Notes under the pieces: generated by a model | Told to the model about the DNA's origin: nothing | The model's database searches: none | The model's input: only the letters and a program-made list of their open reading frames with translations | In this document: piece by piece, positions 9,752-59,465 of the stretch | How positions within the stretch are numbered: the first letter of the stretch is position 1 | How the letters are laid out: every line of letters begins with the position of its first letter | Translations under genes and position numbers: made by a program | DNA from: Atriophallophorus winterbourni | Lineage: Eukaryota > Platyhelminthes > Trematoda > Plagiorchiida > Microphallidae | Reading direction: 5' to 3' | Assembly (NCBI GenBank): GCA_013407085.1 | Contig: JACCGJ010004945.1 | Span: 1 to 64,000 of the forward strand | Length of the DNA stretch: 64,000 nt

Positions 9752-9764
9752 ATTCGTTTGACCT

Positions 9765-29844: not shown

Positions 29845-30130
29845 TTCAAGCGCATGTATGTATGGGCCCATGTGATTAAACAGGTTAATCGTACCAACCT
29901 TATTCAACAGTGGTTGACCAACTGAACTTGTTTATCATTTTTCGGGGCATGTGTATCTTGATCGTACTGTCCTTACCTGATGAGTGCAAACAGCAAACCA
30001 GTCGTAGGGTGTGATGAAAATGCATTCAAATACGGATTTTGTTAATGGTTATGTGCTTAAACTTATCTACATGTGTTTAAGCACATGTATGTGAACAGGT
30101 TAGTTGTGCCAAACTTATCCAACAATGGCT
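29845..30130 (+). mobile_element. Hammerhead-bearing short repeat, variant A, about 1.3 tandem units
   Basis: Sense strand: CACTGTTTCAAGCGCATG, GATTAAACAGGTTAATCGTA, CCAACCTTATTCAACAGTGG, TGATCGTACTGTCCTTACCTG, CTGATGA at 29977-29983, then a deletion that removes the G of GAAAC. A partial second unit follows (CACATGTATGTGAACAGGTT at about 30080). Dead as a ribozyme, but it shows the tandem order. Confidence 0.65.
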
Positions 30131-33045
30131 TACATGATCAACATACCCGGTCAACATACATGATCGACATACCTTAGCGTAAAACTTTTTATTACGCGCT
30201 AAGAGTGGGACTTGAGTTGCTCATCTGTTAGTTCAAAATATCACCCACATGGTACTTCACGTTCGAAACTAGATGCGAAATTTAAATAAATGGAAACATA
30301 AATTTCCGTTTGTCCGCATATTACATAAATAGAACCCTTTGTATAAGCAAAGTAACCACTAAATTCTGGATCCTAGAATTTTAAGGTTCGCTTATATTAC
30401 CCAAAAATTAATATTTGTGATTTATGTTGATGTACTAGTTCTAAGGTCACTTTCGTTTGAATAACTCAGAAGAGACTCTTAATAAAATAGTATTGAATCA
30501 AGAGGCACCCCATTGTCAAGTGCACTAATTTGAGGTGAAATCCGTTTTCAAAACCGCAGTAATTCTTTTGTTAGATTTTGAACTTTTTTATTTTGTTGGA
30601 TTTCAACTCAGAATCCGAAGTGCATTGCTAGTACAATTACGTTGGTCAACGTTCATTCACCGATGCTCCCTGTAATGCTTGCTGAAAAAGAAACCTTTTA
30701 TGATTATCTGATAACAGCCCTTAAAACGAACCGCTGAAAAACTTTGTTGCGGTATTTCGTGATTTGAATTAGAGAGATGGTACAGATCACGAGTCTTGGC
30801 CAAACTATCTTGGAAAGTTCGGTGTAGATAGAATTAATGAAAATGGACCACGCCTTTTATAACTATTCACAGAATTTAGGCTTTATGCCACTAGCAATTA
30901 CTTTCAAACAAATCAACGCCATAAAGTCTCATGGTACCATCCTCTTACGAAGTATTGGAGTCGGCTTCATCTTGTGCTCTGTAAGCGGACTAATATAGAA
31001 ATGTTACTTCTCAATATATCGTATCAGGGCGCAGATGGTGATACTCACCATTTCTCTTACCGGCTGCTTTCAATTTTTCGTTGCAATGACTGATTGATCG
31101 TTACCAAACATTTTCCGTCCCATTTTAATTTGTTGTGAACCACGAGTTTAGACAATGGCGAGCGAGTTGACCAGAACAGTGTAATACTAAGCCAGATGTG
31201 TGAATCAATAAATCTTCAATCTCCGATTTAAGAAGTATTACCAAGCGATCTGGTGGTTTAACCACCGAATAATTCCTCAGTTCAAGGAAGGCAGACGAGG
31301 GTACGTCGAAAGTTTTCTTGAATCAAAGAATGCACAAGGTCAATAAAACTCTGATGAATGCTTGGTTAAAAGTAACCCTCTACATAAACAAATCTGCGAA
31401 TTGAAGTGGAACTCAGCATCCTGAGTTCCTAGCTACCCGGATGAAATGTATAGGAGAAAAATAAAACCGTAAATTCGACATTTCATTGCAGACTTTTGAT
31501 AAAAAATTCATTAGATCAATCGAATTATAATCTAATATTTTGAGTCTTCTCGACCGACCGCCATCGCAGTCTGAGAAAATCCTGTTGGAGAAGGGACTGG
31601 ATTGTGCAAATCCTTAAAGCCAGACGAACATATACCCTGTATTGATGGGCATCAATATGGATGGCATATAAGAAAGATAAAACTCTTCGCTCGGCCTTTT
31701 TTCACCTCAAGGATAAATTACCTTTAGATAGCTCCATTAATTCTGTTTATAGGATAAAGTACAGGGATTGCTATGGTGTATTCATAAGATGACGAGGTAG
31801 AAAGCATAAAAATCTCGAGAGTTAATCGGGACCGTCACACACGTGATCAGGCCTGTATTAATTAAGCTTTATAGTAAGAATCGCAACAGATTCCAAGCGT
31901 GTGACGTCTTCTGGCAAAAGTCTCAAGCGAAATGAAATATAACCGAAATAATTTACCGCGTCTGTCAAATCGAGAATATGTAATGATTAAATCTCATATA
32001 TGTTTGCGTGTTCCAGAAAGATTCACTGGATTTCGTTACTGTTTAAGTGTGTGATTTTTTGTGGGAAGTAGTGTTAAGCACAGTAGGTTTAGTTTTGAAG
32101 CGTCTTAAAAGAAGTGTAAAATGGCAAATAGACTACTAGTTTTGCTATCACTTGTAAACATGCCTGGCACAATAGGCGTGTGAATAGTAGATGCACATAC
32201 TCATTCTATGTCATCCAATAATTCAACGAAACTGAATCTTTCACAGAGGGATCTCACATACACCGCGCTTTCAACTCGCTATCCTATTCTCGCTGTTTCC
32301 GTCACGCATGGCTTAGAAAGATTGCATTAGATTCTATATGTGACTCCACCTACCGATAGCAGCGTGTTTCATTCCTACTTATGTTTCACATCTTTCAGAA
32401 TGTTACTTCGCTATTTATTTCATGTTTTTTAACAAAATTTCATGTAAGAATCCAATGATAGAGATGCAAAAGAAAAAACGATAAAACCGAAATTATTGAA
32501 AGATAACTACCTACATTTTTTGCAATAAATTCTAATTTCGTTGACATTTTGCATAGATTAGATGTGCGTTCACTGATTAATAATCTTACTGAATTTGTAT
32601 AATCAAATCCGCAATCGCGTTCAAGAACAACTTCGATTTCTTTCTTATGCATGCACAATTCATTTGACTATAGGTTGTGGACGCGTTAGTACGCCGAGAT
32701 GCACGTTTGAATTTCAGTCGAACGATCCAAGATCGACTCCGTTGAGTTTTCATATTCATGGCAATAAGATTAATCAAGACACCAGTCGAAGCTGTGTGTG
32801 AGATTAGTGCCAACAATATTTGAAAAATAACTGGGAAACCTTAACATCCTTCCAGTGGGTTTTACCTTATGATTTGTAGATCTTCGACCGAAGGACAAAT
32901 ATTTTGAAATCCGTCTATTGACTTGAAGTGTTTTTTAAGGTGTGGTTGTAGCTCAAATAAGTGCACTTCACAGTGGGTTTTCTCTTCGAACAATATTTCA
33001 ATTCAACAGTCTCCCCGGGTAACAAGGTGACCTTAGAAATAGTGC
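30131..33045. other. Unassigned sequence upstream of the VAL gene
   Basis: No exon, repeat copy or RNA gene recognised in about 2.9 kb. Open frames at 32440-32816 on both strands lack motifs. Confidence 0.45.
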
Positions 33046-33050
33046 ATCAA

Positions 33051-33057
33051 TATAAAG
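33051..33057 (+). promoter_or_regulatory. Candidate TATA box of VAL gene
   Basis: TATAAAG lies 59 bases upstream of the first ATG. This would place transcription start near 33080 and give a 5' UTR of about 35 bases. Confidence 0.5.
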
Positions 33058-33115
33058 CACAATCTTCCGCCTTTCCTGTCAACAGTTTTCATTTGTAACA
33101 ATATTTTCGTTATCA

Positions 33116-33283
33116 ATGCATCGACTTATAGCATTTACTTGGTTCTTGATTGGGTCTTCGTTCGGGCAAATTACGGAAGATCAGAAAAATCTCCTACTGA
33201 AATTTCATAACGATTTTCGAACAAAACTGAAAGAATGTAATTTGGAAGGACAACCTCCAGTGAATGGCACAATGCCGCTTCTT
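33116..33283 (+). CDS. VAL gene exon 1
   Basis: Encodes residues 1-56: signal peptide MHRLIAFTWFLIGSSFG, then the first CAP helix with LLLKFHNDFRTKL. The first ATG after the TATA box is used. Donor CTT/GTAAGT, phase 0. Confidence 0.93.
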
Positions 33284-36200
33284 GTAAGTTTATAAATTTT
33301 GTATAGCAAATACGAGATTCCCTTTACTTCTATGCTGCATTATTTTTGGTTTAAATAAGTGTTTGGTATTCAAAATTACAAAATACGGAAGTGCTAGTAG
33401 TGGATTATGTTTTATTCTTATGTGTATTCATCAGTCTCTTTCTGATTCTAAGTTTTTTTATTTTCAGTCATAATCTCTGTGCAGATAGTGTTCTGTCGTG
33501 GATATGTCACTAAAATTATTCTAGAACAAACAGCTTATTGATTAGTTTGTCATTTCAATTGAAAAATTGCTTCATTGTTAACTTAAGTCATTAGAAATAT
33601 ATTTTTTCTTTAACTCAAAAACTATGTAGATTCTGCGAATAGATGTGTATTTTATCTCAAAAATCAAGTAGTGGCAACTGGCATGCTTTGTTCGAATGTA
33701 GAGTTCATAGAAAAATTAATTTCTGGCAATCAAACATCTGATGTTTTTTGCATTCCAACTTTGCGGATAGCTATAGAACAACTCTCCCTATTAGTTTGCA
33801 CCAGTCTATGGTGAACACCTTTTCATACGATCTACTGAAACTGGAGTCACTCAGACAATGCGATAGTAGTTATGTGCAATTCGATGTTTCTGTTTGATTC
33901 GCTCATATTTTGCCAGCAATACCGCAGCATGCATTCCGCATGTGTAAACTTAATTACTCATTGAATCGTTGAATCTTAGCTCATGTATTATTGTAAAATA
34001 ATAAGTCGCTATTGTTTCGCTATTCACTCGTCTATGTTTTTCCCTCTAACTCTTAGGTCTTCCAATTTACCTTTGGAATGTATAGGTTCAGACGTCGTTT
34101 TCACAGTGATTAGGAATTCGATTCTAATCACAGCATGGGTTTAATAAAATAGGTTTCTTCTGATGTGATCCTAACCTAGGAGAATACGTTATACTTCAAG
34201 CATAGTGCAAACGAAGCAGGTAAAAATGTCGAACTATGATGAGGTTGCTTTCAGATGTTCCTTTAGGAAAACACTGCTCTTCAGCGACAGTTCTACTCTT
34301 GAAGTCCTCAATGCAGTAAGATGCTCATGTTACATTACGTAAATATGCACATAAAAGTATTGTTTTGGAATAAATCAGTGTTTCCGGGGATGAAATGGCT
34401 TCTGAAATCAAAATTCTTTTTAAATTTAGTCACGGTTATTGCAAAATTTACTCAATAAAATCCGCTTTAGTCAGGTTCAAAATAATGTTTAACCATTCAA
34501 AATCAAGTTGTGAAAACGATTTGCCTTGCGTACGAGCGTGTAACGAACAATGCGGATCCTCTTAATGCATAAACTCGGGTCTAACATTATTTGACGATGA
34601 AATGGATCCAATGTTTGATATTTTCAGATTGGAAATCTGCAGTGGTGTGAGTGTTGAAATATTCCCCCTTTAGGCGCTTCTGTGTTCAAATTCTGCCATA
34701 GTTGCACATTACATAATTTTGTGCTTAACCACATTTTCTATGTAGTTTACCTAGGTGTAACACGAAAAGACAATAGTCAGAACGTCCGCCAAGAATCAGT
34801 TCCAGTGTGGACAAATGAATCAGTTCAATCAAGTCGTACCAAATAACCCGAAAATAAGCAACGGCTCAATGAAACCAAGATTATTGTTAGATAAATAAAT
34901 TATGTCAATTACTTGCAATCCCATTTGATATGACACCTGCTTTCAACGAAATTTTAATTAGTAATTCTAATGTTGTTATCACTCATTTGTATTAAAAAAC
35001 TTGTAAATACTGCACTAATTATTTCTTCTTCCATTTCCGCAGCAATGGCATGACGGTCTCGCAGAAAAAGCCAAAGAATGGGCCGTTCAATGCAAGTTGG
35101 GACATGACACAAACGAAGCACGCAAAATTCCAGATTTTGAAAATGTCGGGCAGAATTTCGCGGCTGGATTCGATATTCCCTCGTGGGTTATTAGAATGTT
35201 GTGCTTTTCGGTATTATTGGGCTTGTCACGTTATATGTCCCGTTTTAATTTGTAATTTACGTAGGTGTATTTAGCAAATGTTCTGGTTTAATCGTATAAA
35301 AGTCCCCATTGTAGGTTATCTAGATGGCAATTATTATTATTATTATAGAGAGCTTTAGTAAAATCCTAAGAATTAGCACCAGTAATTGAATAATGCTCGC
35401 AATCGGTAGTGCGAATTAAGTGGAAATTAGGTTTAATTCAATATGATAAGCTAAGTGTTAATTAAGATTCGCTGTTGCTTTCGTTCTAAATGTTGACCCC
35501 GAACGCTAAAAATAGACTGTGCGCATGCAACAGTGGCATACAAGCGCCACTTGTTTTCCGTTCTTCCACTGGATAAAGCGCATGTGGATCCTAATCCTAC
35601 GGTCCCTACCTGATGATTGCAGACAGCACGAAACTGGTCGCGATGTGTGTGTAATGGAAATACAAGTAAATGAGCATTTATGTTTATAAAATCATTTACT
35701 TGATTTTCTCTATGAAATTAGGTGCCATTAACCGACAGTATTTTTCACACAAGATCCTATATTAGCGGTTATAATTAGAGCTCCATTTCTGTTCTCGATA
35801 GCCAGACACTTTGAATGTTATTGTTAATATGTTAACTTGCATAAGTACTTCTTGTCAATAGCTCGTATCCGGCAACGTTTCATAACAAATCTCGGAGAGT
35901 TTGATTAATTTGTTGATAAGGCTGTTTGCATTTGCATAGATAAACTTGATCGTGTTTTTCGTGATTAATGACTAGGTGTAAATTGAAATTATTGATCTGA
36001 CTTCTCTGAAATCGGACTTGGCAAATTTATGGGGGATTGAGCTGTGATAGTTACTAGTATGTGTGCATGTTTGTTTGTGTTGATTTTCCTTGAGTGACAG
36101 AATTAAAAATTGTATCAGGTTCTCGATTCGGATCTTGATCGATTGCAGATCGAGTGGCATTTGTGTTATTCGTCTAGGTGGAATCTTTCGCCTGTGCATG

Positions 36201-39200
36201 CATCTCAAAGTTTCCTTGTTTGAACGTTATCCTCTACACTCGATGATTCTCTCATACTTTGACGCCAGGATCAGATAGAATAACCCCTTTTTGGGAACCT
36301 ATGTTTCAAGGCTTTCCGGGTCTTAGTCTATCGGCCATGGCTCTGTTTAGAATTGTCACTTTCAGCGGATTTTGACACACGCCATTGTACTTCGGAGATC
36401 GTGGTAGACGGAAATTATCGACCGCAGCTTACTAGGAAATGTTCATAATTTCTGCCAGGAATCTTCGCTGTTTTCTGTCGTGGCTAGAGCGTTCGTGTGT
36501 GTAAGAATCATCAATGGCTTCTGGAATCTCAAAGTAAGACAAGACTACAGGATGAATTGTTTCCGCGATCAGTGGTTGTGCCGTTTCTCTCGCACCAGGG
36601 AATATCGGGGTATACACGGCAGGGTGATCCACAGCAACTTCGTAGCATGTATGTGTTTAGCAATATTTCTTCTAGATCTCTTCCATTGTGTACGGTTATT
36701 TTAAGCAATCGTAATTTGTTGTGCTGTGGCGGATCACGTTTTCTAGGGAGCGGATTCAATGAAGTGAGCATAACGTGATTTATTTTCAGCATATTACACA
36801 GGTCAAACCACGCCTTAAGATCGTGAAGAATAAGGTTCTGGAATATTTATACATATTACACAAAAGTTTTGGAACCGGGTGGCTGATATATTGTTTGAAT
36901 TTTGTGGAGCTCGTCCACGTGTAATCTCTTCGATGGCTATATATGCTTTAGCATCAGCGACTGAAACTGTAAAGTCTAGGACTGTTGTGGTCTATGATTT
37001 TAGTGTCTGTGCCGGGTTTGCGTGTTCGTTAGTTTGATATATGTGCTGGCTTCGGGAGCTCATGTTGGTGGAGTCATTATCCTACACTGTTTATCCATGT
37101 TATCCTTTGATCAGCGATAGCTTTCCTATTTTCAAATATACAGCTATCATTTATTCCTTGTTTTGAGTTTAGAGGACGCTGGTTTCGTGCGAGCTTCTAA
37201 CAAAGAATCGAGGTTAAGTTCGATATTTTAAACATGATCAATCGTGACAATTCGCGACTCTAAACTCAGCCCTTGATTGGTTGTCTGCAGTTGCCGGGTT
37301 CAGAGGCCTCGTGAAATGTGTCTGTATTCGGAGCAGATGTAGCAGACTCCCGAGGGAGAATCGCCTTTGATTATATTTATCGTTTCCTTCGTTAAGGTCG
37401 TATTGCAGCTAGCATGGATTTAGCCAGAGCGGCTTTGACTGGTCACAGCACGTGCCTTCGAAATTCGCCTTTTCGTACAGCTTTTTCACTTTTTGTCGTA
37501 CGGCGTTTTGGGTCACCGTTTAGCGTTTATATGCGGTCGTCTGTGTTTGTGTGTCCAAGTTAATGGGGAGAGACGATACTTCGTGTAGGCAATGAAATAT
37601 AAATCGCTGGTTGGAATGAGTAACTTGATGCGTGGACAAGTTAGGGTTAGATTTGCAAAGCTAGACAAAGATGATATCCAAGATGCTGAGCTTCACGATC
37701 AAGATAAAAATATTTAGAGAGATAGAGAGAGAGAGCTCAAAAGATGTAGAACGTTGAGCTCTTCCGAGTGGATGGAAATTCAACTGTGTCGTAAATTGTT
37801 AAATATTGCATGCATCGATATTACGATTAAATTTATCCCGAATAGGAAAAATTACCGTGTTATCCTATATAGAGCAAAGATGGTATAATCCGATAGATCT
37901 TGACGAGACGATAACAAATATCTTCGAATTATTCCGGCATGACTTGGAAGCAAGTAGTAATTCGCGAAAGTGTCAGAGCGTAAAATTATTCCGGCCGCTC
38001 GTCAGATGCTTTTCAGGTTATTATCTTTAGTTGTTTGTTGTACAGGATGTTGGATGAGGTAATTATTTTGGGGTTCAAATCAGAATTTTCAAATTTCTTA
38101 TGTGTAACGCCTCATCAGGTTTTTGTTGCAATTTCCAGATGAATGGGTTAATTGAGTCTGCAATCGCTTTTTCATTCTCAAATCATACTGAACATTGTAA
38201 ACACGATCATGAGTGCAAAGCAGGATTGATTCTTAGTTGTTAATTGACCTGGAAGCAGCGTGATCCTCCTGTGATACATTTGTCTGACCAACAATTTAGA
38301 CATGTTTCATTATCCGTCATTCTATGTGTGCTTTCTGATATAAATATAGATTATAATTTTAAAAAATAATATTGAATAAAGGGTTTTTCTAAGTTTTTTC
38401 AACATATTATTTTCTCAGAAATAGCTTCAGGATTCTGTGTATCATTATTCGCCGAGTTTTCCTTACACATACAATTTTAGTGAAATAAATTTACTGTTGT
38501 GAATTTTGGTGAATCTAAATTGCAGGAGTATCCAATTGTGGGCTGATGAATACAAATATTACACGCTCTCCACCAATGAATGTCAGGCTGGAAAAGTCTG
38601 TGGACATTACACACAGGTATTGTTGCATGACTTAACATAGAGTTCTTCAGCGTGATCAATATTTACACTCACTGATTGGTGTGTATCTTAATACATCCGT
38701 TGTATCTTGAACATACCGTGCATTGACAAATTTACTATTGCTGAAGTGTTTTCAAAAGCTGGTCTACAGAGCATGTTCACCATTCTACGACAGTGCTGCC
38801 TGCGGTGGCTTGGCCACGTCTCAGAATGTAACATGGTCGTATTCCAAAAGATCTACTTTATGGTAAGTTGAAATAAGGAAGTCGACCATTGGGCAGACCG
38901 CTGTACAAATACGTTTGCAAAAGAGATATGAAAGCTCTTGGCATTGACCGTGCGAGTTGGGAAGAACTTTCAATTGACCGTTCACATTGGAGGCAAGCAA
39001 GCTGGGAAGGATTAGATACTACTCTTGGCTGCTGAACTCTGATCACGCCGCCGGCATGCAACTGACGTCCTACAACCGAGTTCTGCCTATCGTTGCATGC
39101 GCTGCGGGAGAGATTGTTACTCCCGAATCGGACTGCTTAGTCAATTGAAAAGCTGTAGAACATGAAAATTCATGCGATTGTGATTTATATTCATGGTCGA

Positions 39201-42200
39201 TATCGCCGAAGGAAGGCAACAACATATAATAAAACAATGAATTTAGTTTTTTGAAGTGGTCGTTGTGACATTTTTCTAGAAGACTCGTGTAAGTTGAATA
39301 AAAAACTTAAAGTTTAGGAATTTAGTGTTCCGATGCTCACTGAAACTTATCTTACTCTCGCTACCTAATGACGGCAAACAGCCAGAAACCGGCATTAGTG
39401 TGTAAATGATGGGGATGTGAGCATCACAATACATAAGTGGGTTACAATTTTAGATATAACTGATGACACCAAGCAAGTCCATGCAACATTTGGTTATGGA
39501 GATTCTTTTCATGGAATTTCAAACTCAACGAAAATTTACCCAGGATTCTTGCTATCATCTCACGGCCGCAACAGAGCGAAGTGCGGATGATAGATTTTCA
39601 GTTCTATTTCTTTTTACATGCAATCTTGATTGATAAGAGACCTCATAGCTGCCAGTTTTAATGAGTTTGCAAGACTGATGAATGTTTGGATTTTGAAGAC
39701 TTAAAAGTTGTGGGGGCATTTCGGAAATTGAATTTTCGCATTCCTTGTTTGGTCTTCGAGAATCGAAGGCATTATTAATACACAATCGGTCCCAAACATA
39801 TTCCAATTAATTACCAACTACGGTTTTCCGATAAAATGTAAGTTAAAGTACGCTCGAGGTAAGTATTATAGATTATTTCCTCATTGATGATCAGTTTAAT
39901 GATATTTACATTCTATTTCATTATTTATTAACAGAATGTTTAATCAGCTTGTGATTGATTATTAGGCTTTTTAAGTTGCTATTTTATTTCTGATGAGCTG
40001 TGCAAAAAGGGTTTTATCTTTGTTAAATCTCAAGGTGTTACTTGCCATTATTTCGATAATTTGACTTACATTTTTATCAATTATCAATACAATTTCAAGG
40101 GCATCAAACGGTTGAAACTGTAAACTGATATAGTGTTAGAATTCCATGACGGAACAGTGATCGGCTTTATCTCTATTGTATTGTGGTAGAGTAGATGTTT
40201 TAACTTATCGAAATTGTCTTTTGGTTTCTAAACTGTTTTGTTGGAATTTTTATTCATTTATCTTGTGCAGCTTGTGTGGCAAGAAACCACGCATGTGGGA
40301 TGCAGCGTGACAGATTGCTCAGGAACTCCAAACTACGCTTACAAATTAAATATAGTCTGCAACTACGGACCGAGGTGAGAAAATCTATAATATGTGGTAC
40401 TCTTTTGTTTTTTTTCTCAAAGACATGCCGCTTAAATTTTCCTACTTGTTTGAAGTTGGCACAAATATGTTTTTGATTATCGTAAACCGTTAAGGTGAAG
40501 TTCTAATGTTGAGTATGATTAATAATCATGATAGCCATCAAGATTTATATTGTTTTAGTTATGTAAATTTTAAAGTGGCGCAAAACATGATACATATAAT
40601 TGTGATGACATGATTGATTAATGCGGCAGATTGCGAACTCTGTCAATTGGTGATATGCATAGCCTTTTACAGTTGAAGAAACCCATTAATGCTCGCCTAA
40701 AGTTTATTTTCACATGCACTGCTTTATGAAACTACATATTCAGTTAAAATCAGCTCTTCTTTATTGTTTTGCACATGCTGCAGAAGATATTAATGTTTTC
40801 GTCTATTATAAGGCATCAAGTTGTGAACGCGTGTTGTAATCGTTCCCATTCTGCCATATCACAGGAATTAAAGTAACGTATAAGTTGATCTGATCAGACA
40901 AAGACATGAAACTAGGTGTTGTTTAAACGCGTTCGAATCAAAATGTATTATTCCCAAAGGCGATTTAGATGTTTAGTTTCATTTGAATTCAGCTAATCTT
41001 GCCATTTGATGCAAGTATCATGCAGTGTGATGATAAAATCAAAATAGTTCACAATTTGATGGTCCGCCTTCTCTCATCAGTATGTGCATTCGCAGCGTAC
41101 TTTGATTTTGAACGTTCAGTCAGTCACACTTATAATTTCCTGTGAATTAATGACATTTCGTTATAAGATTCTACGCTCTAATGCGTTGTGAATATCAACG
41201 TCGAATATATGGAGCTTCTAATAACAAATAACTGTTTCCGAAAACCAATAAAAATCATTTGCAAAATACAGTGGGAATACGGCTATCGATTTCCTTCCAA
41301 ACGAGTCTTTTCATGTGCATCCGTACAACTACATACTAGACTCACCAAAGATTACATTCAATTGCCCACATTATATCGTGACGCGAGAACTTTATCAGAT
41401 AGAAATTAAAAATATTTCACTTGAGATTATTTCTTTCAACAATAGATTGATTTGGTGTTTTATCGTTTGTATTCCTTGAGGCAGATCAATTTACCTTCGT
41501 TGAAATTGCAATGAACACACATCGAGTTAATGATCAATTAAAGTATTTTGATTTGCATTTAAGCAATTATATAATCCATTAGTTCAGTTTATATAAACAA
41601 GCGTGTATGTTATCAGGGGGATTTCAGTCATTATTGGTCATAAGTTGCTCTCAGATTATTGCTAAAATTTTGATTAAAAACTTACTGAAGATAAGTTGTT
41701 TCACATGAAACCTACCCGCACGGAACACACTTCCCGGGGTGGTTTCGGTAAGAATGTGGTAGTTTATTGACTTCAGTAAATTGTGAGACAAGGTTTGATG
41801 TTAAACGTTTCTTAGGTTTTGGAAATGTCAGGATCATTCTTCTACATCAAATGATTCCACACAGAAATATGTTCATGCATGATTTTATGTAATGATAGAG
41901 AAACGAACTTCTTTGTTTGAATATCGTTTCCCATTTTCACTTAAATTTCAATTTTAAAAAATTAGAATCGTGGTCTTATAAAGAAGTTGTGTTTGACTAA
42001 GAATTCAATCATTTTCTCAGATTTTTAATCATCCAGCTTTGGTTAAACTTTCGTTATGGATGATAATCTTCTGTCATTTACAGCTTTATGCCTTTATTCA
42101 TTGCATGCTATCCTTTATTCATCGCATGCTATCTCTAACCATCGAGTATCTCATTTGGAAACGGCTCTAGAATATTTCATATTGCAATTACAAATAAACG

Positions 42201-42892: not shown

Positions 42893-43735
42893 TGGTACAA
42901 TACTGATTCAAACAAAATGTTCGTAACCGAACTTTCTCTCATTACACACACCATGAAGTTTACACAAGATGTATTCACACAGCACATATGGATAGTAAGT
43001 AAGTATCTGCGCGCTAGGAAACAGTAAACAATTAAAAATAACTTTGAACTACGATACTACTCAAAGAAAGATTGGTTGATAAAAATACTCATTAGCATGC
43101 ATTACCACCAAACGCACTCTGCGACTTGTTTCGTGCTGTCAGCACTTATCAGGTAGGGACAGTAAGATCAGGATCCGCATGCGCTTGAAACAGTGGAAGA
43201 ATGGTAAACGATTTGCGCTTGTATGCCACTGTTGGATAAGGCTGGTACGACCAACCTGTTCAATCACATCAGCCCGCACTCATATGTACTGGGTTGAAGC
43301 CCATGACCATGAATAAAAAAGCTCATTTGCATGCATCTCCATCACACACACACACCCCAGGACTGGTTTTGTACTTTTTGCACTCATCAGGTAGTGACAG
43401 TAGGATCAGGAACCGCATGCGCTTGAAACAGCGGAGTAATGGATACCAAATTGTGCTTGTATGTCACTGTAACATTCAAAAGTATATTTACATTTTGAAC
43501 ACAACCGACTCGACCAAATGTGCTTTGAGAGTAAAATTTTGAAATGGATGCGTTAGGTGAGATATTGTACTGATTCAAACAAAATATCCGTATCCACAAT
43601 TTTATTTCATCGCACACACCATATAGTTTACCTAAGATGTATTCACCCAACACATGGGGATACTGAGTTAAGACCAGCGTGCTTTGAAACAGTGAATAAA
43701 TAAAAAGATATCTTTGAAACTCAATGCCTATCGTA
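42893..43735 (-). repeat. Tandem array of short hammerhead repeats
   Basis: At least four related blocks in one orientation: two well-preserved variant A monomers (about 43085-43310 and 43319-43475, starts 234 bp apart) between two diverged blocks (42893-43062 and 43557-43722) that match each other, e.g. TACTGATTCAAACAAAATRT. Core states on the minus strand: CTGATAA with GAAAC in the first, CTGATGA with AAAAC in the second. None is intact. Confidence 0.75.
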
Positions 43736-44630: not shown

Positions 44631-44631
44631 A

Positions 44632-44910
44632 AGAAAAAAGCTCATTTGCATGCATTTCCATCACACACACACACACACCACGTCCGGTTTCGTGCTGTTT
44701 GCACGAACAAGTAGGGGGAAAATGTCCACGATGCGCTTGCGCTTGAAACAGTGCAAAAATGGTAAAACGTTGCGCTTGTATGCTACTCTTGGATAAGGTT
44801 AGTACGATCAAACTGTTCAATGACATGAGCCCACACTCATGTAGATATGGTGTAAACCAATGACCATGAACAAAAAAGCTCATTTGCATGTATTTCCATC
44901 ACCTTTCATA
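44632..44910 (-). mobile_element. Hammerhead-bearing short repeat, variant A, 1.2 tandem units
   Basis: One full monomer plus the start of a second; CTCATTTGCATG occurs at 44641 and 44879, 238 bp apart. GAAAC, the GCAC arm and ACCGG are intact, but CTGATGA has become TTGTTCG. Confidence 0.75.
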
Positions 44911-45439: not shown

Positions 45440-45900
45440 GTTAAAATATAGTGTTCACCACGCATTCCCATCGCTTGCTATACAACTCGTTTCTGGATGT
45501 TCGGTTACAGTTCTTACCATCCATTTTGTTGTTGATGTCCTCCTTCGATCGTTGTCGACCATGGATGTACATCAAAATCGCATGATTGTTCTCATAGTTC
45601 ACAGCTTTTCGAATAAATAAACAGTCCGATTCTGGATTAACAATCTCTCCCGCAGCGCTTTCACAGATTTGCAGAACTCGGTCGATCGGCGTCAATTGCA
45701 TGCCGGCGGCATGATATGCGTTCAGCAGCCACGAACTGTATCTCCTACTCCCCTGCTTCCAGACGACGCAATACACAATGCCTCCAATTTGAGCGGTCAA
45801 GAGCAAGTTCTTCCAAAATCGTGGGGTTAATGCTAAGAGCTTTTATACCTCTCATTCAGGCGTCTTTGTACCGCCAGTGTGGTCTTCCCAATACTTGAGT
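45440..45900 (-). mobile_element. LINE family A 3' end (copy 7)
   Basis: Minus-strand LEELALDRSNWRHCVLRRLE and a finger with KRCGRDC...SRIGLFIYSKSC (one Cys region damaged), then TACATCCATGGTCGACAACG. The upstream part of the same element probably lies at 46170-47800; the RT between them is gone. Confidence 0.75.
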
Positions 45901-45904
45901 TCTT

Positions 45905-46122
45905 AAACCATGACCATGAGCACATGTGATTGAACAGGTTGGTCGTACCAACCTTACACAACAGTGTCATACAAGCGCAACATGTTTACCATTCTTCGAC
46001 TGTTTCAAGTGCATGCGGATCCTGATCCTACTGTCCCTACCTGAAGAGTGCAAAAGCACGATTCCAGTCGTGCTGTGTGTGTATGATGGAGATGCACGCA
46101 AATGAGCGTTTTTATTCACGGC
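45905..46122 (+). mobile_element. Hammerhead-bearing short repeat, variant A
   Basis: ATTGAACAGGTTGGTCGTAC, CAACAGTGTCATACAAGCGC, CGACTGTTTCAAGTGCATGC, GATCCTGATCCTACTGTCCC, CTGAAGA (a permitted variant), GTGC/GCAC, then GATTC in place of GAAAC, then CAGTCGTG and GATGGAGATGCACGC. The core is broken at GAAAC. It sits exactly between two pieces of a LINE of opposite orientation. Confidence 0.75.
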
Positions 46123-46169
46123 TGTGATAACGTTTGCAAATCACGCAACTAGTTTATGGTTGCACATGC

Positions 46170-48419: not shown

Positions 48420-49115
48420 TACACGCAAGACAGAAACGGAAGCGGAATGTTTTCCATCTACGAAGCATCTGCCGTATCTAGAAAATACCGTGGATGGACA
48501 GAAGGACTAATGCTAAGATGCTTTCAAAAGCTGGTCTAGAGACAGTGCAACCTGCTGTGGCTTGGCCACGTCTAAAGAATGGAAAATGGTCGTATTCCGA
48601 AAGATCTACTCTATGGTGCGTTGAAATCAGGAACTCGAACATTGGGGAGACTGCGCTCGCGGTACAACGACGTTTACAGAAGAGATATGAAGGCTCTTGG
48701 CATTGATTCTATGAGTTTGGGAGAACTTGCTCTTGACCACTCACGTTGGAGGCATTGTGTAAAGCGTCGTCTGCAAATTGTGGAGGTGCTGATAAGGTTC
48801 TTGGAAGCTGAACGCGAATCATGCCACCGGCGTGCTTATCGGTGAAAGCGCTGCAAGGGAGATTGTTCCTCTCGAATCGGACTGTTTAATCATTCGAAAA
48901 GCTGTGAAATACGAGAAAAATCATGCAATTATGATGTACATCCATGGTCGACATCGATCGAAGGAGGAGATCAACAACAGTATGGATGGTAAGAACTGTA
49001 ACCGAACATCCAGAAACGAGTTGTATAGCAAGCGATGCATGCAATTGTGAAGTATATCCATGGTCGTTATTTACCGAAGGAGTCCAACAACAACAACAAC
49101 AACCTAGAAGACAGC
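48420..49115 (+). mobile_element. LINE family A 3' end (copy 8)
   Basis: MDRRTNAKMLSKAGLE, then after a frame change ENGRIPKDLLYGALKSGTRT, RSRYNDVYRRDMKALGIDSM, LDHSRWRHCVKRRLQ and a finger region (KRCKGDCSSRIGLFNHSKSC). The 3' end block TCCATGGTC occurs twice (48941 and 49057) and the element ends in (CAA)n at 49086-49105. Confidence 0.85.
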
Positions 49116-49139
49116 AAAGTATTTGAAAATATTCAAGAC

Positions 49140-49332
49140 CGATCGGGAGTCCATAATCATGAAAATAAAGTTTGCAATGAATCGGTTATAGTAAGTTTTT
49201 GGTAAAGTTTCGCTTCTGAACACAGAAGCTTCCTCAGACCAAGGGTGTCGGTACGAACAGTGTTTAGGTTGAAATGGCATTCTCTTGACCAATCCTGAGT
49301 TCTCTAAGCTAGACAATGGACACCTATACAAA
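49140..49332 (-). repeat. Penelope-like element pseudo-LTR, copy 1
   Basis: About 165 bp match 49905-50060 in the same orientation: GTTTGCAATGAATCGGTTAT, AGTAAGTTTTTGGTAA, GACCAA, GGTGTCGGTACGAACAGTG, GGCATTCTCTTGACCAATCC. Direct flanking copies are the normal pseudo-LTR layout of Penelope-like elements. Confidence 0.75.
49198..49242 (-). ncRNA. Hammerhead motif in PLE pseudo-LTR, copy 1
   Basis: Minus strand: TTGGT, CTGAGGA, then a stem II of seven pairs (GCTTCTG/CAGAAGC with loop TGTT), GAAAC, TTT, ACCAA. Stem I pairs TTGGT with ACCAA. The CTGANGA and GAAA boxes are intact, with one extra A before stem II. Stem III is only one or two pairs. Confidence 0.6.
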
Positions 49333-49334
49333 CA

Positions 49335-49393
49335 AAACGATGGTCTGTGGTTACTGTAAAGTATTTACTTTTTGGACCATTAAAACTTTGAAT
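49335..49393 (+). mobile_element. CR1-like 3' UTR tail fragment
   Basis: GGTTACTGTAAAGTATTTAC, TTTTTGGACCATTAAAACTT, TGAATTA matches the CR1 3' end at 14380-14325 (minus). Confidence 0.65.
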
Positions 49394-49395
49394 TA

Positions 49396-49735
49396 GTGAT
49401 TGGCTCACCCATTTCTCCAGTGCTCGCGAATATGTACATGGAGCACTTCAAAGAGATAGCTTTGAGAAACAAAGCGTTAAAACCAAATATACGGTGGCGC
49501 TATGTAGACGATACATTCGTCATCATAAAGCGAAACAGACTGGAAGCATTTCATAGTTATCTCGATAGTTTGAATCCAAAAATCCAAGTCACAAAAGAAA
49601 CCGAGTCTACGGAAGGGACACTTCCGTTCTTGGACTGTCTCGCGCAAAAAGACAACGGCAAGATAAGAACAACGGTATATCGTAAGCCTATCGACACGGA
49701 GATAATATCTCCTACCCGTGTGGTTCAATAAAGTC
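49396..49735 (+). mobile_element. Penelope-like RT fragment
   Basis: The 111-codon frame reads GSPISPVLANMYMEHFKE, WRYVDDTFVIIKRNRLEAF, PKIQVTKETESTEGTLPFLD and TTVYRKPIDTE: the PLE RT blocks with the YVDD catalytic box intact. The orientation is opposite to the PLE pieces on both sides, so it is a separate or inverted piece. Confidence 0.88.
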
Positions 49736-49799
49736 TGACCTCAAAATGTGTGGTACGCTTTTTCACACTTCATGCAACATTTTTGTGGTCTCCATTGTT

Positions 49800-50890
49800 C
49801 CTAAGCGGTAAATCCTTGACAAAAAATGGACGATTGTATTAAAGCAACCCTAGCATGAGAAATTAAATCGACCAAATTAAGGATTTTATTAAAAGTGTCT
49901 TTTAAGTTTGCAATGAATCGGTTATAGTAAGTTTTTGGTAACGTTTCGCTTCTGAACACAAGCTTCATCAGACCAAAGGTGTCGGTACGAACAGTGATCA
50001 GGTTTAAATGGCATTCTCTTGACCAATCCTGAGTTTTCTGAGCTAGACAGGGGAGATCAAGATAATTGATCACACCTTCTAATTGCCGTGTTTATCCCTA
50101 ATTGTTTATTAATTGCACAGGTCAGCGTCTGCTGACACACTCCTTACGTAATCATGTGCGTTTTGTGTGATGTTCGTTAATCCTTATTCGCTGCAAAACC
50201 GAACGCCAGATTGTTGAGATATCCGCCCCATCCACCTTGTTCACCGCATTCGCCCCAGCCTTTGTTATTTCAACAGCCTCGGCGTGAAGTCTTTCCCTAT
50301 AAGATTTCACACCCCGTCTTATCACTTTCACGTTATCAAGATCTACGCTGTGTCCAGTGTCTAGCACGTGTTCAGCTAGGGCCGAATCCCAAATCAGTGA
50401 TTGATATTCAATAAGATTGCGAGGTCACTTTCCCACTCGTTTCCTGTGTTCGTTTACCATAGTGCAGAGTTCTTTAGACGTTTGCCCAATGTAAACACCC
50501 GCACAACCCTTGCAGTTGATTTTGTAGATGCAGTTCGTCGCACAACCTAAATGAGTCTTATCTTTGAGATGCATTAATACGGAGCAGAGAGTTTTACCTG
50601 TTTTTTATGTTACTCTAATACCTGTGCTATTCAACATTCGACTTATTCCTTCGGAGGCGTTTTGACATACGGCAGAGATACCGTAGCTCACAAAACTTTT
50701 TCCGTCTCCGGTTGCGGATGTTTAACTCTGTTCAATTGGCGCTCTTGGGATAACCATGATTTGCAAGTCGGCGACTGACTTCTTCATAAGCTCGTCTCTT
50801 ATCTGCATCATCGCTGCAGAGGAGGTTAACCTTGTAGAATAGCGATTTCGCTATGGACTGAAATACCCTTTTAGGGTGCGCAGATGTGAG
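49800..50890 (-). mobile_element. Penelope-like element 3' half with GIY-YIG endonuclease
   Basis: Minus-strand order: RT thumb end HPKRVFQSIAKSLFYKVNLL, RRAYEEVSRRLANHGYPKSA; linker GISAVCQNASEGISRMLNST; GIY-YIG domain CIYKINCKGCAGVYIGQTSK with NEHRKRVG; C-terminus LAEHVLDTGHSVDLDNVKVI, SYRERLHAEAVEI to the stop at 50152. A TGA after RKRVGK, another stop in the linker and a frame change make it inactive. A pseudo-LTR with hammerhead motif follows. Confidence 0.85.
49934..49977 (-). ncRNA. Hammerhead motif in PLE pseudo-LTR, copy 2
   Basis: Minus strand: TTTGGT, CTGATGA, AGCTTGTGTTCAGAAGC (stem II GCTT/AAGC), GAAAC, GTT, ACCAAA. Stem I is six Watson-Crick pairs (TTTGGT/ACCAAA). The self-complementary ACGT at stem III fits the minimal hammerheads described in Penelope-like elements, thought to work as dimers. 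Confidence 0.65.
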
Positions 50891-53344: not shown

Positions 53345-53610
53345 TACCTCGTGCCTAAAACAGTTGCGCTTTTATGCCACTGTTGGATAAGTTTGTCACG
53401 ACCAGCGTGTTCAACCTCATGTACCCTATCACATGTAGATGGGGTTAAACCCATGATCATCAACAGGAATACGGATTCGCATGTATTTTCATCACACACA
53501 CACACCACGATAGGTTTCGCGCTGTTTACACTAATCAGGTAGGGACTATATGATCACAGTCGCATATTTTGAAAAAGTGGAAGGTTTGCGCTTGTTTGCC
53601 ACTGATGGAT
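53345..53610 (-). mobile_element. Hammerhead-bearing short repeat, variant A, 1.2 tandem units
   Basis: Plus-strand text TGCCACTGTTGGATAAGTTT, GTAGATGGGGTTAAACCCAT, CATCACACACACACACCACG, GGTTTCGCGCTGTTTACACT, AATCAGGTAGGGAC. On the minus strand the core reads CTGATTA with intact GAAAC: one substitution at an essential G. Confidence 0.7.
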
Positions 53611-54630
53611 CAGGTGTCCGTTATTCATCATAATCTATAAACATTGAGCTTTTATATAAATCAATTCGAATTTAGATTGTTTCATGGACAAACACTTTTG
53701 CTGTATAACAACTGGATTTTCGGTTGGAAAAAAAACATTAATTTATTTTCGGCCACATTGAATTTGTTTCTCAGTTTTCAATGATTTCCCGTTTCTTTCC
53801 CATCCAATTATGTTTAGCCACGTTCGGACTTGGACTCTCGTCCCGGTAGCCGAAAATTGTGCGGCAGTCACATCCGCCAAGTTAGCAAGAGACGCGCGGA
53901 TGCGTGTGTTGGGCTGCATGCCGTCAAATCAGGTCTACGCGTTTGTGATTTATTTCTCCTGTGAACATGTAAATCCTGTTGTTTCCTACCTTCCAACTAC
54001 CGCCGCTTGCCAGTTGATGCTACATTAACGAATGGTTTTTGTTCACGTTGCAAAACGAGATTAAAGCAAGTCGGGGAATGTCATAATGTAGGTTGTAGGT
54101 GAAAAGCATGTATGTGTTGGAGCTGTGTTAGCCATCTATTTGAAGCATTGCTAAAAAGCTAAGTGGAATTGATGAATCGTGTGTCTTTCAGCAATCAGTT
54201 GAAATGGGTTGCATATCCTGTGAGCTCCCGTTAATTTAAGATTAATTCATAAAACATTACAGGAGAGCACTCAATCAAGTTTAATTAAATATAATTAATT
54301 AATTAATAACTAATATTAATTATAATTAATGTGATGTATAAGTTTAAAATTTAGTTTACAAATGTGGTTCAAGCTACAAGATATCCATGCTTTGTGATTG
54401 CATAATGACCTACTAGAAGTGTTTGTCTTCTCTGGGAAATGGACAATCAAGAAGACTAAGAAGCGGTCACGATACCTACGCCAGTGAATCTGTTTATCAT
54501 CGCATGACTGCAGTTGTCCACATTTTCAAAGGCAGAAAACGCATTAATTTGTGGAAATATTCAATACGCAATTGATATGCCCCGGTTGTTGGTTATTGTG
54601 GTGGTATGCAACTGATGAATGAAAATTTAG
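53611..54630. other. Unassigned; AT-palindromic stretch at 54285-54345
   Basis: No gene seen. 54285-54345 is nearly pure TTAATTAA-type sequence. Confidence 0.45.
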
Positions 54631-54833: not shown

Positions 54834-57800
54834 GTAAGTTTTGGAGAGGCTCCTTTCGAAAACTCTTCGTGGAGCAAAGTGTATGTTTCTTCCGGGAACT
54901 TTGTGTAGTCTCAACATAGGGGCATTCATGAGATCGCTGCCTCCATTACCATTATTCCTGTTGGGTATGATAGGAGTGATGAATACAAAAAAATGCGCTG
55001 AAATAACTAAAAATTGCTGGAAAAGTAGCTTATCTTTTTCACGCCCAGGAGCAGATTTCTCGTAGTGGCCTCCACGTATGTCGAGCTTGAGATCCATGCA
55101 TCGAATATTATGGTTTTAGGTATGGAGAAGACAATCAACCAGAGCTAAATGACGTTCATCGCATCAGCTACCTCGGCAGCTTTATGAAAAACAAACTTGA
55201 AACCTATACATGTTGGAACTTCCTAGACTTTGACTAGCTCACTAAAGTGAACATATGCGACAAGTTGATCAACCTTGTGCTCGTCTAAGCATAGCAATCG
55301 GGAAATTTGAAAGTGACGATCGTCAAACAGCATCAAACTTTCTGGAATGGGAACCACACATTACTGCTTACTATTCGCTGCCGATAACCTTAGAAAATGG
55401 AATGTTATGACAACTAACGGAGCAGTTTTCCTTTCAAATCTTACCAATTCACCGACTCTCTATACTCCGAAAATCGATAAAGCACAGGCAAGACAGATTT
55501 CACTGAATAATAGACTCTGAAAAAACTTGGCACCACAAATTCGATCGAATGACCTGCTCGGTTATTAATAAGGTGTGCAAAAATTTCAAATGCAATTAAA
55601 GGGTATATATGATTTTTGTTGCATACGTTATTAACAAATTAACCAAATTCTACTGGAACTTTAAGCTATTGTGACAATGGTATGCACTTCTCAAATTAAA
55701 AAGTAACGATCTTAAATGTTGAGCAATTAATATGATCATGCGAGAATTTAAATAATTGGTTAATCGGGTTAATCCGGGTTGGCCCAATTCGAAAATTAAA
55801 TTCCAGATTTCTTTTTCTTCTTTCAACCTAAATTATCATTCCACTTTCCTTGACAAAATCAATTTTATCGATCTTTGCTACTACAAAAGAGAGATACCAC
55901 CGTTTGAGACGAAAATTATTTCCTCGTCTCGATCGATCGAACCGTTTGATATCACTGATGCACAACTACAAGTTTGTAAGATGGCGTGGCCTCCTGTCAA
56001 TGCTAGATTTTCCGGGTCAACCCGAGTTGTAATGGGAAAATCGAGACTATTGTCAAACACGCAATGCTTCGAAATTAGACATGGCGAATCATCCGCCTTG
56101 CTGCAACGCGAAAATCCCTGAGTACGCTATCCACTAGTTGAAGAAAGACGCGTCAAGATTTTTCGGAGTGGTTTTTAAACTCTGGATTTCTCGAAACGGT
56201 GCGCGCGTGATGCTGGCCGAGTGGATGAATTACGGATTGATAAACATACATTCAAATTTCCACGAGCAACGCACGGCCTCGAGAGTGAAATTAGTTTGAC
56301 AGTTGTTCGTTCTGGCAGTGATGAGCTGCCTGATGTGTGGAGATACGTGTGATATTCCCGGTGTCCTCTGAGTCGAGTGAATCCGTGTGTTGTGTGGTGT
56401 TGTATGGGAGGTTGCAAGGGGGTAAACAACTGGCGTTCTCTGGGAAATGTCCATTTATCTTCGCTCTGTGAAGATGAAACTTTCGCAACCTCGGAATACA
56501 TGCAGCTCGGAATTAATAGTGATAAATTACTGCCTTATAAAGGAAAAAATTCAAAAGTTTTTATACAGTTCAAATACCTTTCATTTTCATTTAGATTCGA
56601 GTTTAGTATTAGTGCATGACTCATTTAGTGTATCATAATTTTAGATAGTCAAATTAAAACCAGTATAGTTCCCATACTTATGCTTGGATTAGGTTATTTT
56701 GCTTCGTAATTCCGTGTTTACGAATGTATCCTGACAACTGTGCTTCAAATCCTTGTCAACTATACAGTCATGATAAACCTGATACTATCGCAGATCCCGG
56801 ATTTTGTTAAACAACAAAATGTTTGACTGCACACACAGATCGAATTTAAACAAATGTTGGTATGGCCTTAGCGGCTCGACAACATGCACATGGTGTGTAT
56901 GTAAATGGAGTGCAACTTGTGCAAAATAACCCTTGCCTGTCTCGCGCCGTTTACCCTCATCGTGGATGAATCTTAGGATTAGGATACGCCTGCTATGAAT
57001 TTGTGGTGTGAACGCTAAACGCACTCTAAATTTTTAATGACACATAATACACAGGCAAACGCGGTGAAGGACACATGCTTGAATGATTTGCACTCAACGA
57101 TCTGCAGATAGTAACCTCGGTTACAATAAGCATCGGATTGCTTTGCAAGAGTTGAACCGGATCCTTCGTTCTTTTTACACATCAGTAACTTTCAAACATG
57201 TGGATCCGAGAGACTGCGTCTTCCAGACTCTCTCGTGTCGATTTCGCGTGAGCGGTCATGACATGGTACCGCTTGGAAACGCGAGTAAATGATTGGTTTC
57301 ACGACACGTGAGAAGTAGAATCAAAGAGGACTGGGATCGTTACACTCGTCCTTTAAATAATGCTTCACACGTATAAGTAAAACGTAATCTGCTTGTCATC
57401 AAATCAGTTTAATCTCAGGTAAAAAAATCAAAAACAAATGACCAAATAATCTAATGTTTGTCCTCAGAACAATATAATAGAGATCAATATTATAATAAAT
57501 TGAGCAATTGCGGAAAAAATGTAAAAAAACGACTTAATTCACTTCCACGGTGCAAACAAAACATGTCTTTTACTTTTACATGCATAATTAGGTTAACAAT
57601 ATCCAGGGTCTAATTTTCAACTTCATATTAAAATTAAACGCTACGATTTTTACAGCATTACAGAAAGAAAGTATCGTCGATTGAATTATAAATCATGACA
57701 AAAACCTGAATGATACATATAGTTTTTTATCGCCACAGCTCTTAAAATCGGAATACAATCATTACTTCCCCTACCCTTTTGTAGTCCTTCCTATTGTTTG

Positions 57801-58672
57801 CAGTCCGTTGAATCCCTGATAGCGGTTAATCAACAATAACGTAAATTGATGTCCCCTGTGAAGCATTCAAAGGTCAAGTCATCCAAGGTGTTTCCAAGGG
57901 AATGTATTTCGACCCGCGGCTTATGAATGATTGCGTGTGCAGGATTTCCTTTTGAAACTGTTGACTTGGTAACCCGGACGCTGTTGCAACCGGGTTAGCC
58001 AACAACTGTCATGGTAATAGACCGTGTCAGAGAATCCTTTGTATTATTTAGCTACACGTTGAAGCGTAGTGCACAGCTAGGTAGCTGACTATCAATGAAC
58101 ACCTTTTGTGCTCCTTCCGTGTTGATTTGGACATCTTCTATGGTTACGTTGGAAATTGAAGACATTTCCTCGATTTTTCATGCACCGTAACTCATGTAAA
58201 ACACAGCATATTATCAGTTTATTTTGTTCAAAATTAAATAATAACGTCGGCACCGTGAAAGTTAAACATTTAATCAGATTCAATTATACGCTCGACCCAG
58301 GTTCGCGATCTGAATTCGTATTTATTATTAGCGACATCACTTTCAATAATGACGCCAATTATTGAAAAGAATTTATGGTGATGTGTGAGAAGCAATGGAA
58401 AACAAGGAAACACAAATATCGTTTTCTCGTCAACTACAATTTTTTTTACAAATTAAACCGCTGTAATAAACGCCTTGATTAACAAATGACCGAAATAAGA
58501 AGGTTGGAACACATTCGAGTATTGTTTGCTTAATATGTTGCGAATCGGTTGGATAGAATTTGATATTTCAGCGTGTTTAAGATTTTTGGGTTGGAATGCC
58601 TGTCGTGCGAAGCTGGGTTCATAAGTTTCAACTTTTTCTATCACTCTGCTTTTGTTTAAAGTCAACTTGAAC
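54834..58672. other. Mostly unassigned; possible LINE scrap at 55100-55210
   Basis: VHRISYLGSFMKNKLET at about 55160 resembles the 'F.YLGS' block of a LINE RT; the surroundings are too decayed to confirm. Frames at 55756-56121 and 56175-56638 overlap on both strands without motifs. Confidence 0.35.
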
Positions 58673-58795
58673 CTAAAAGCTCATTTGCATGCATCTCCAT
58701 CACACACACACAAACCACAACGGTTTCGTGCTGTTTGCACTCATCAGGTAGGGACTGTAGGATCGTGAACGGCATGCGCTTGAACCTGTTGACAA
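58673..58795 (-). mobile_element. Hammerhead-bearing short repeat, variant A
   Basis: Truncated monomer: AAAGCTCATTTGCATGCATC, TCCATCACACACACACAAAC, core, GTAGGGACTGTAGGATCGTG, GCATGCGCTTGAAC in plus-strand order. Confidence 0.75.
58714..58752 (-). ncRNA. Hammerhead ribozyme motif (near-intact), short repeat
   Basis: Minus strand: CTAC, CTGATGA, GTGC-AAACA-GCAC (four perfect pairs), GAAAC, CGTT, GTGG. All core bases are present and stem I pairs (CTAC/GTGG with one wobble). One base is lost from the palindromic ACCGGT of stem III, and the cleavage base reads T in place of C. Confidence 0.65.
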
Positions 58796-59374
58796 TTTTA
58801 CAAACTTTCAGTCGAATTTATAGTGGATAACTCGTTTGTGAGCTACATCATCCATACAGCTATTTGGCACTGGGGATCAATGACCAAATCTGCTGGCTCG
58901 ATGATTGCTAAACAACAACAACCAGCACTGGACGGTATCCCATGACAAATTATTTAGATTAATGTGATATAATCGTTTTACGTTTCCATTTAGTGCTCAT
59001 TCATATTGCTTGTCGATACAAATGAATATTCATACAGATAGTTCACACGTCATCAAATTCAGATCAAAGCACGAATCACTAAGGATTCGCATAAGCTAAT
59101 GACATGTTTACAGCCGCATTGCTACAGCGGTAAGTTTTACCTTGTCAAACAGCTGCGGCTTCTAGCACCCTCTCCAAACGCTCCAACCATATTGCTTGTT
59201 CTAATCCTTGTTAATGAAACCCGAGATTATGGACAGCTGTACGGGACCAAGTGCCGGATAATGGAGAAATGATATGGTTTTCTATCTCTAATTAATAGCA
59301 GTTTATTATTGTTAATTTTCCTTAATTTCAACGAAATCGTTTGTTTGAAAATCGGGTAATTACTCTATTAATCT

Positions 59375-59465
59375 TTTGTGGTGCTCACATCCCCACCCCT
59401 TAAACACCACTACCGGTTTCTGGCTGTTTGCCGTCATCAGGTGGAGACAGTAAGATCAGATCGTT
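59375..59465 (-). mobile_element. Hammerhead-bearing short repeat, variant B
   Basis: Minus strand: CTTACTGTCTCCAC, core, GTGGTGTTTAAGGGG, TGGGGATGTGAGCACCAC. Relatives are at 6560, 39345 and a tail scrap at 62225. Confidence 0.7.
59405..59446 (-). ncRNA. Hammerhead ribozyme motif (intact core), variant B
   Basis: Minus strand: CTCCAC, CTGATGA, CGGC-AAACA-GCCA (three strong pairs), GAAAC, CGGTA, GTGG. Stem I CCAC/GTGG is perfect, stem III is the self-complementary ACCGGT, and the cleavage triplet is GUA, allowed by the NUH rule. This is the best-preserved core in the window. Activity is inferred from the motif only. Confidence 0.7.

Follow-up and report, generated by a model that had tools for sequence, protein, structure and literature searches.

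Animal retrozymes without long terminal repeats (non-LTR retrozymes) are described as units of 170-400 nt with type I hammerhead ribozymes, low GC content, tandem copies, longer duplications and co-occurring Penelope-like elements, and platyhelminths are named among their hosts (PMC7229834). That account, from 2020, treats Penelope-like elements as only a strong candidate for the retrozyme helper. In the anole, a Penelope-like reverse transcriptase (RT) initiates internally at two positions downstream of the hammerhead, which determine the genomic tail, and insertion in vitro still occurs when the hammerhead is mutated (PMC11167929). The thousands of inserts in a single genome can show where copying starts, which bears on how animal retrozymes insert and on the enzyme that inserts them. 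Here, we describe a hammerhead-bearing repeat family, named A/B after its two units, in the trematode Atriophallophorus winterbourni, starting from a 64,000-nucleotide stretch of contig JACCGJ010004945.1 (positions 1 to 64,000, forward strand; hereafter, the window). The family is confirmed as real and is wider than a first, sequence-only reading of the window had described. Features visible in the letters themselves are the repeat with its hammerhead motif, covariation of helices between A and B, copies both in tandem and dispersed, flanking duplications at some of them, preferred 3' junctions, and Penelope-like sequences in the same genome. Together, A and B are likely two related non-autonomous retrotransposon families of the animal non-LTR retrozyme kind, with a unit of approximately 235-241 bp.

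Units and hammerheads of the A/B family

Genome-wide counts cover the whole assembly (537 Mb; 15,840 contigs). Only CTGATGA, AAACA and GAAAC are specified in the core pattern CTGATGANNNNAAACANNNNGAAAC, with helix II unconstrained. An exact search for it gives 13,536 matches (6,537 + 6,999), with none for the reversed control, and a 25-mer from the body of the repeat has 4,138 matches (1,965 + 2,173) at up to one mismatch, likewise with none for its control. Within the window, TGAACAGGTTGGTCGTACC (up to three mismatches) is matched five times, where 0.01 matches are expected by chance, and blastn with five query copies places family members, most of them decayed, at about 16 sites from 6.6 to 59.5 kb. 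Six CTGATGA...GAAAC strings occur there: four belong to the A/B family, one to a Penelope-like repeat, and one, at 52.7 kb, apparently to neither. No match to the family was found in viral contigs, searched with one exact pattern, or in plasmids, covered by one similarity search. Likewise, literature on hammerhead retrozymes, Penelope, trematodes and flatworms, and microphallid genomes yielded no report of the family, although the coverage was partial and is no proof of absence.

Strict copies in the sampled loci number 101 distinct sequences, which a rule based on helix II divides into 51 A and 50 B. Unit A measures 234 bp by majority and has the helix II strands GTGC/GCAC and the cleavage triplet GTC, while unit B measures 241 bp, with CGGC/GCCA and GTA; the GC contents of the majority units are 0.466 and 0.456, respectively. 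Fifteen A and seven B units lie between neighbouring hammerheads, counting only lengths of 222-245 bp. The sequence-only reading had described one dispersed, partly tandem repeat at positions 29845..59465, with tandem periods of 234 and 238 bp. Its motifs (hammerhead boxes, body, and tail) are present where it placed them, and the sequence supports its view of a repeat of the retrozyme kind that bears a type I hammerhead per unit and is sometimes tandem. Copies do lie in that interval, but the family reaches well to the left of it, from 6.6 kb, and mixes two units rather than one. The 238-bp period is found twice in the window (hammerheads at 43.1-43.4 kb and tails at 44.6-44.9 kb), whereas a 234-bp period was not found there, despite being the majority length of unit A genome-wide. 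Finally, tandem units occur, but the family is mostly dispersed, 65 of 114 inserts being no longer than one unit.

By the genomic criteria tested, the family fits animal non-LTR retrozymes: there is a hammerhead in each unit, tandem units fall within 150-450 bp, GC content is below 50%, duplications exceed 4 bp, and Penelope-like elements occur in the genome. Of the LTR, primer binding site and polypurine tract that such retrozymes lack, the listing of insert boundaries bears on the LTR, and no LTR-like ends were noticed in it. Expression as self-cleaved linear and circular RNA is a further mark of these retrozymes.

The A/B hammerhead has a short helix I, a helix II of four pairs closed by a five-base loop, and a helix III reduced to the palindrome ACCGGT. 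The latter had been taken at first sight as a sign of dimer activity, and it is the same in the A and B majority sequences (6/6), which fits that suggestion. Pairing in so minimal a helix probably needs two units, and by analogy with amphibian hammerheads, dimer action is likely. When shorter stretches were scanned, the Rfam model RF00163 (Hammerhead_1) matched A copies at up to 32.9 bits (E 1.7e-5; gathering score, 34), with five matches in locus L076 and eight in L004, L006, L008, and L025.

The clearest signal comes from the helices, as seen in an alignment of 19 units (12 A and 7 B) from 21 references, with L006:1243-1481 and L076:1096-1327 dropped. RNAalifold predicts 24 pairs, six of which show compensatory change. 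Compensatory pairs lie in helix II (UA 12, GC 7), in a distal helix (CG/UA, AU/GC, and UA/AU), and in a hairpin of the body (GC/CG). In a 36-pair structure of our own naming, 89.5% of cells are paired, relative to 37-42% when the structure is slid along the alignment, and 40 cells are doubly changed, relative to 17.2 in shuffles. The distal helix continues helix I (GCAUGC with GCAUGC in A; GUGAGC with GCUCAC in B), and a closed unit would therefore form a long rod. In folding stability, the A majority unit exceeds every one of 200 shuffles (z -3.56), and unit B has a z of -2.27, with 4 of 200 shuffles as low. Between the two majority sequences, the core is unchanged at 11 of 11 positions and the rest is identical at 142 of 192. 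Because 3.2% of random 11-position sets reach this level and full conservation is also seen in 14 of 168 windows with that geometry, core conservation taken alone is weak, and the helix pairs speak more clearly.

Insert junctions and a candidate mechanism of insertion

Inserts were found by the hammerhead string (up to four mismatches) and aligned to concatemers of the units, giving 115 records, of which one at a locus edge was dropped before ends were counted (114 remaining; 62 A and 52 B). Their 3' ends are far from uniform. Sixty-four of the 114 stop within a 17-nt interval (unit positions 64-80) that lies about 40 nt beyond the predicted cleavage site and would hold about 8 under a uniform distribution, and a further 13 stop at positions 180-195. 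The 5' ends vary, with starts at positions 190-219, just upstream of the distal helix, in 18 of the 62 A inserts and 17 of the 52 B inserts. Direct repeats scoring at least 9 flank 15 of 113 inserts (13.3%), relative to 1.1% of shuffled pairs; the clear cases span 9-15 bp, and three inserts have repeats of 13-15 bp, a length absent from the null. Judged by these ends and flanks, A/B copies look like retro-insertions, part of them with target-site duplications. The cleavage site itself was also considered as an insert boundary, and no clear excess was seen there (3/114 starts at positions 28-33; 2/114 ends at 27-33).

A second sample, consisting of 40 A copies picked with the body 25-mer, shows the second junction again: 13 of the 40 end at positions 180-186, seven of them exactly after CTTGTTTA or CTTGTCTA. 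Twenty of these 40 copies extend through the cleavage site, and no copy has its end at positions 26-34 around it, so the template for insertion was probably circular or uncleaved. Among the inserts ending at the first junction, 20 of 64 are longer than one unit. As read from such ends, a circle, an uncleaved multimer or a cleavage-dead RNA is needed, because a linear cleaved monomer would end at the cleavage site and never exceed one unit.

Penelope-like sequence is present in the same genome, in decayed pieces only. A GIY-YIG frame is about 50% identical to Penelope-like proteins of tapeworms, which combine RT with GIY-YIG, and tblastn with queries P0001-P0004 detects such frames, among the sampled sequences, in the window and in loci L065, L068, and L069, besides L080-L082, which had been chosen for their GIY-YIG domain. 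A hammerhead string (up to one mismatch) was not found in L080-L082, the first GIY-YIG Penelope candidates. As a separate observation, in all three of these places the Penelope-type GIY-YIG frames lie head to head with, and close to, RT segments that we read from the letters as Gypsy-like; the mix is unusual and may represent a composite retroelement. One copy of the Penelope-like repeat in the window stops about 35 nt beyond the cleavage site predicted for it, which is an anecdote, because other copies run on or stop earlier.

The junction pattern of A/B fits the internal start described for the anole Penelope-like element, without proving it, and an internal start by a Penelope-type RT is the best candidate for the insertion mechanism of the family. 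Specifically, the A/B unit would be transcribed, and its type I hammerhead, with the minimal palindromic helix III probably pairing across two units, would cleave multimers into monomers that are then closed into circles. A Penelope-like RT with its GIY-YIG endonuclease would prime from a nicked target at preferred internal positions of the unit, one about 40 nt beyond the cleavage site and the other near position 182, run through the cleavage site, and either stop early or circle more than once, leaving short, 5'-truncated or partly tandem inserts. Extended to animal retrozymes as a whole, the proposal is that insertion is set by such internal starts, which favour two sites on a hammerhead RNA that is circular or uncleaved, and not by the ends that cleavage generates. 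We put this forward tentatively, at somewhat less than even confidence. If true, the junctions in a genome mark where the enzyme began copying and identify the helper that has long been sought. Together with the number of inserts in this genome, the body-found sample makes the helper question one of junction mapping and in vitro priming.

Several observations weigh against these readings. An Rfam scan of the whole window (E up to 1) reported nothing, which counts against the reality of a hammerhead family, and RF00163 had no match in L027 and L052, the two loci tested for B copies. Among 50 B copies, 37 have C.A and 5 have T-A as the basal pair of helix II; the B hammerhead may be weak or inactive, owing to this C.A pair and the lack of an RF00163 match at L027 and L052. 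The covariation reflects mainly a single contrast, that between A and B, and two of the five measures are not above shuffles (double-change pairs, 7 vs 7.5; pair types, 24 vs 26). Turning to the inserts, 98 of 113 have no clear flanking duplication, and two of the 15 that do, in L042 and L044, share flanks and probably derive from one insertion. Some hammerhead strings (e.g., in L011 and L055) gave no insert above the score cut-off and are uncounted, and inserts found through the hammerhead cross the cleavage site by construction, such that those lying wholly downstream are missed. The A and B units also share no significant sequence with the Penelope-like repeat of the window (best E 0.38).

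Conservation within unit A belongs to the same account. Of the 40 body-chosen copies, 20 align across the hammerhead (the set includes L113 and L114, which look alike and are probably not independent), and they agree with the majority sequence at 92.5% of core positions (222/240; 12 positions per copy), relative to 90.0% for the body (1386/1540). Selection on the core was sought among these copies and none was seen, as 21% of random 12-position sets do as well. The sequence-only reading had named, as a finding that would speak against it, copies whose boxes are no better conserved than the remainder of the repeat; to the letter, this holds for the body-found A copies (0.925 vs 0.900). We read the pattern as neutral decay of single A copies after insertion, as dead inserts should decay, because the core is fixed and the helices covary between A and B.

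Other routes to the same inserts have to be set beside the Penelope-type internal start. The A/B repeat might be the pseudo-LTR, or an internally deleted derivative, of a Penelope-like element, its solo copies being remnants of long elements. Minimal hammerheads are known in the pseudo-LTRs of Penelope-like elements (PMC7761336), the window holds a Penelope-like repeat with a hammerhead motif, and the A/B junctions downstream of the hammerhead resemble the Penelope tail (PMC11167929). We nevertheless consider this origin unlikely, given the lack of significant similarity between the A/B units and the Penelope-like region of the window, the unit-to-unit tandem copies without a coding part, and the few sampled sequences (L065, L068, L069, and the window, besides L080-L082) in which Penelope-like frames were detected.

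It is more doubtful that A/B is an ordinary short interspersed element (SINE) mobilized by a long interspersed element (LINE), with the hammerhead as a passenger. Target-primed reverse transcription is in general consistent with a preferred 3' end, truncation at the 5' end, and target-site duplications, and LINE-like fragments are present in the window. An Sm-alpha-like SINE carries an internal RNA polymerase III promoter with A and B boxes. An A-box-like string with one mismatch occurs once in each majority unit, but no B box with up to two mismatches was found on either strand of majority units A and B, and A/B, on this account, does not look like an Sm-alpha-type or ordinary polymerase III SINE. 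The likeness to Sm-alpha drawn in the sequence-only reading is not supported on the same point, as judged without an aligned Sm-alpha sequence. Moreover, no poly-A tail was seen at the listed insert junctions, and a SINE does not readily account for two distinct 3' junctions or tandem units. Finally, satellite DNA spread by unequal exchange and DNA recombination, rather than through RNA, would explain tandem units of near-constant period; it is already disfavoured, and we regard it as very improbable, in view of the predominance of inserts no longer than one unit, the concentration of 3' ends at two sites, and flanking duplications above chance.

Copies and neighbouring sequences in the window

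Most copies in the window are of type A, with B at three sites. The leftmost, at 6576..6675 (-), is a B-type hammerhead insert of 0.41 unit with the 10-bp direct repeat ATTGTTTCAC on each side (insert alignment and flank comparison), and its core reads CTGATGA TGAC AAACA GTCA GAAACCGGAA from 6647 (-). It is followed by a decayed A-related fragment around a hammerhead at 8366..8436 (+; blastn) and by decayed A-related inserts at 9759..9869 (-; 77% identity), 11101..11202 (+), and 12724..12834 (-; 76% identity), all three from blastn and insert alignment. The same two methods delimit an A-type insert of 0.64 unit at 23174..23329 (-), which ends at the first 3' junction, and the B-type insert at 39294..39432 (+). 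Blastn identified a decayed, A-type partial tandem of about 2.2 units at 29590..30142 (+), and motif search with blastn an A-type insert with an intact CTGATGA...GAAAC at 35525..35687 (+).

Further to the right, sequence comparison resolves the A-type tandem at 43079..43470 (-), with 1.66 units and two hammerheads 238 bp apart, while blastn gives three more A-type copies. That at 44631..44902 (-), of about 1.15 units with its tail repeated 238 bp apart, enters the insert counts via locus L001, which overlaps the window; that at 45916..46121 (+), with the core CTGAAGA and a shortened loop II, lies outside the counted inserts; and that at 53356..53615 (-) spans 1.16 units. Two copies near the right end were located by motif search and blastn: an A-type insert at 58654..58792 (-), with CTGATGA GTGC AAACA GCAC GAAAC at 58747-58723, and the B-type insert at 59377..59459 (-), with CTGATGA CGGC AAACA GCCA GAAAC CGGTA from 59440.

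The Penelope-like pieces detected by tblastn are an RT segment at 49399-49707 (+) and a decayed frame comprising the RT end and GIY-YIG endonuclease at 50236..50796 (-). Between them, at 49904..50049 (-), lies a copy of the Penelope-like direct repeat with its own hammerhead (CTGATGA...GAAAC, 49971-49943), which stands outside the A/B family and represents a candidate helper lineage. A second copy at 49150..49345 (-), identified by motif and repeat comparison, carries the hammerhead-like CTGAGGA...GAAA at 49237-49208, and two further fragments of this hammerhead-bearing repeat lie at 20540-20647 (+) and 24905-24984 (+).

LINE-like RT pieces and tails are repeated at 3403-4107 (+), 38694-39228, 45469-45902, and 48466-49095, and partly adjoin hammerhead inserts; the domain scan covered the first of these frames (3403-4107). 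A GGAT tetranucleotide array of 33 copies occupies 16454-16586. The open frame at 60781-61275 (-) contains a stretch of 24 residues that we read as the end of a Lox5-like homeodomain; the frame had no match in Pfam. As to the identity of the genome, a COX1 frame is open over 543 codons under the flatworm mitochondrial code 9 and matches best, at 80%, that of Prosthogonimus cuneatus (Microphalloidea, Plagiorchiida), with other digeneans next, which places the host among the digenean flukes. There are 24 COX1 matches in the genome; beside the one open frame, many stretches contain stops and are probably nuclear mitochondrial copies.

Comparison with described elements

Among fluke repeats, Sm-alpha and Sj-alpha of schistosomes resemble A/B as families with a type I hammerhead (PMC8490949), whereas A/B lacks a B box and has a minimal helix III; the comparison is by description. 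The W-elements of Schistosoma mansoni are likewise repetitive, some with hammerheads, and are called satellite-like in the available part of PMC8490949, against which A/B was set by description only.

Penelope-like elements share with A/B a minimal hammerhead, a 3' boundary tens of nucleotides past the cleavage site, and two preferred starts (PMC11167929). In contrast, A/B units encode no protein, and their two junctions are separated by about 110 nt of the unit, relative to a Penelope-like tail of 30-40 bp (PMC11167929).

The closest likeness is to metazoan non-LTR retrozymes, which have in common with A/B a type I hammerhead, a unit of a few hundred base pairs, copies ranging from dimers to short multimers, GC content below 50%, no LTR noticed, duplications above 4 bp, and Penelope-like sequences (PMC7229834). 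A/B differs in its own sequence and in its many short, truncated inserts, and its minimal palindromic helix III is closer to that of amphibians than to the longer one that invertebrates typically have (PMC7229834). Preferred internal 3' junctions such as those of A/B have no description in the excerpts of PMC7229834 available. We rate A/B as a family with its own sequence within the known retrozyme kind, and its preferred internal 3' junctions as the new and testable point.

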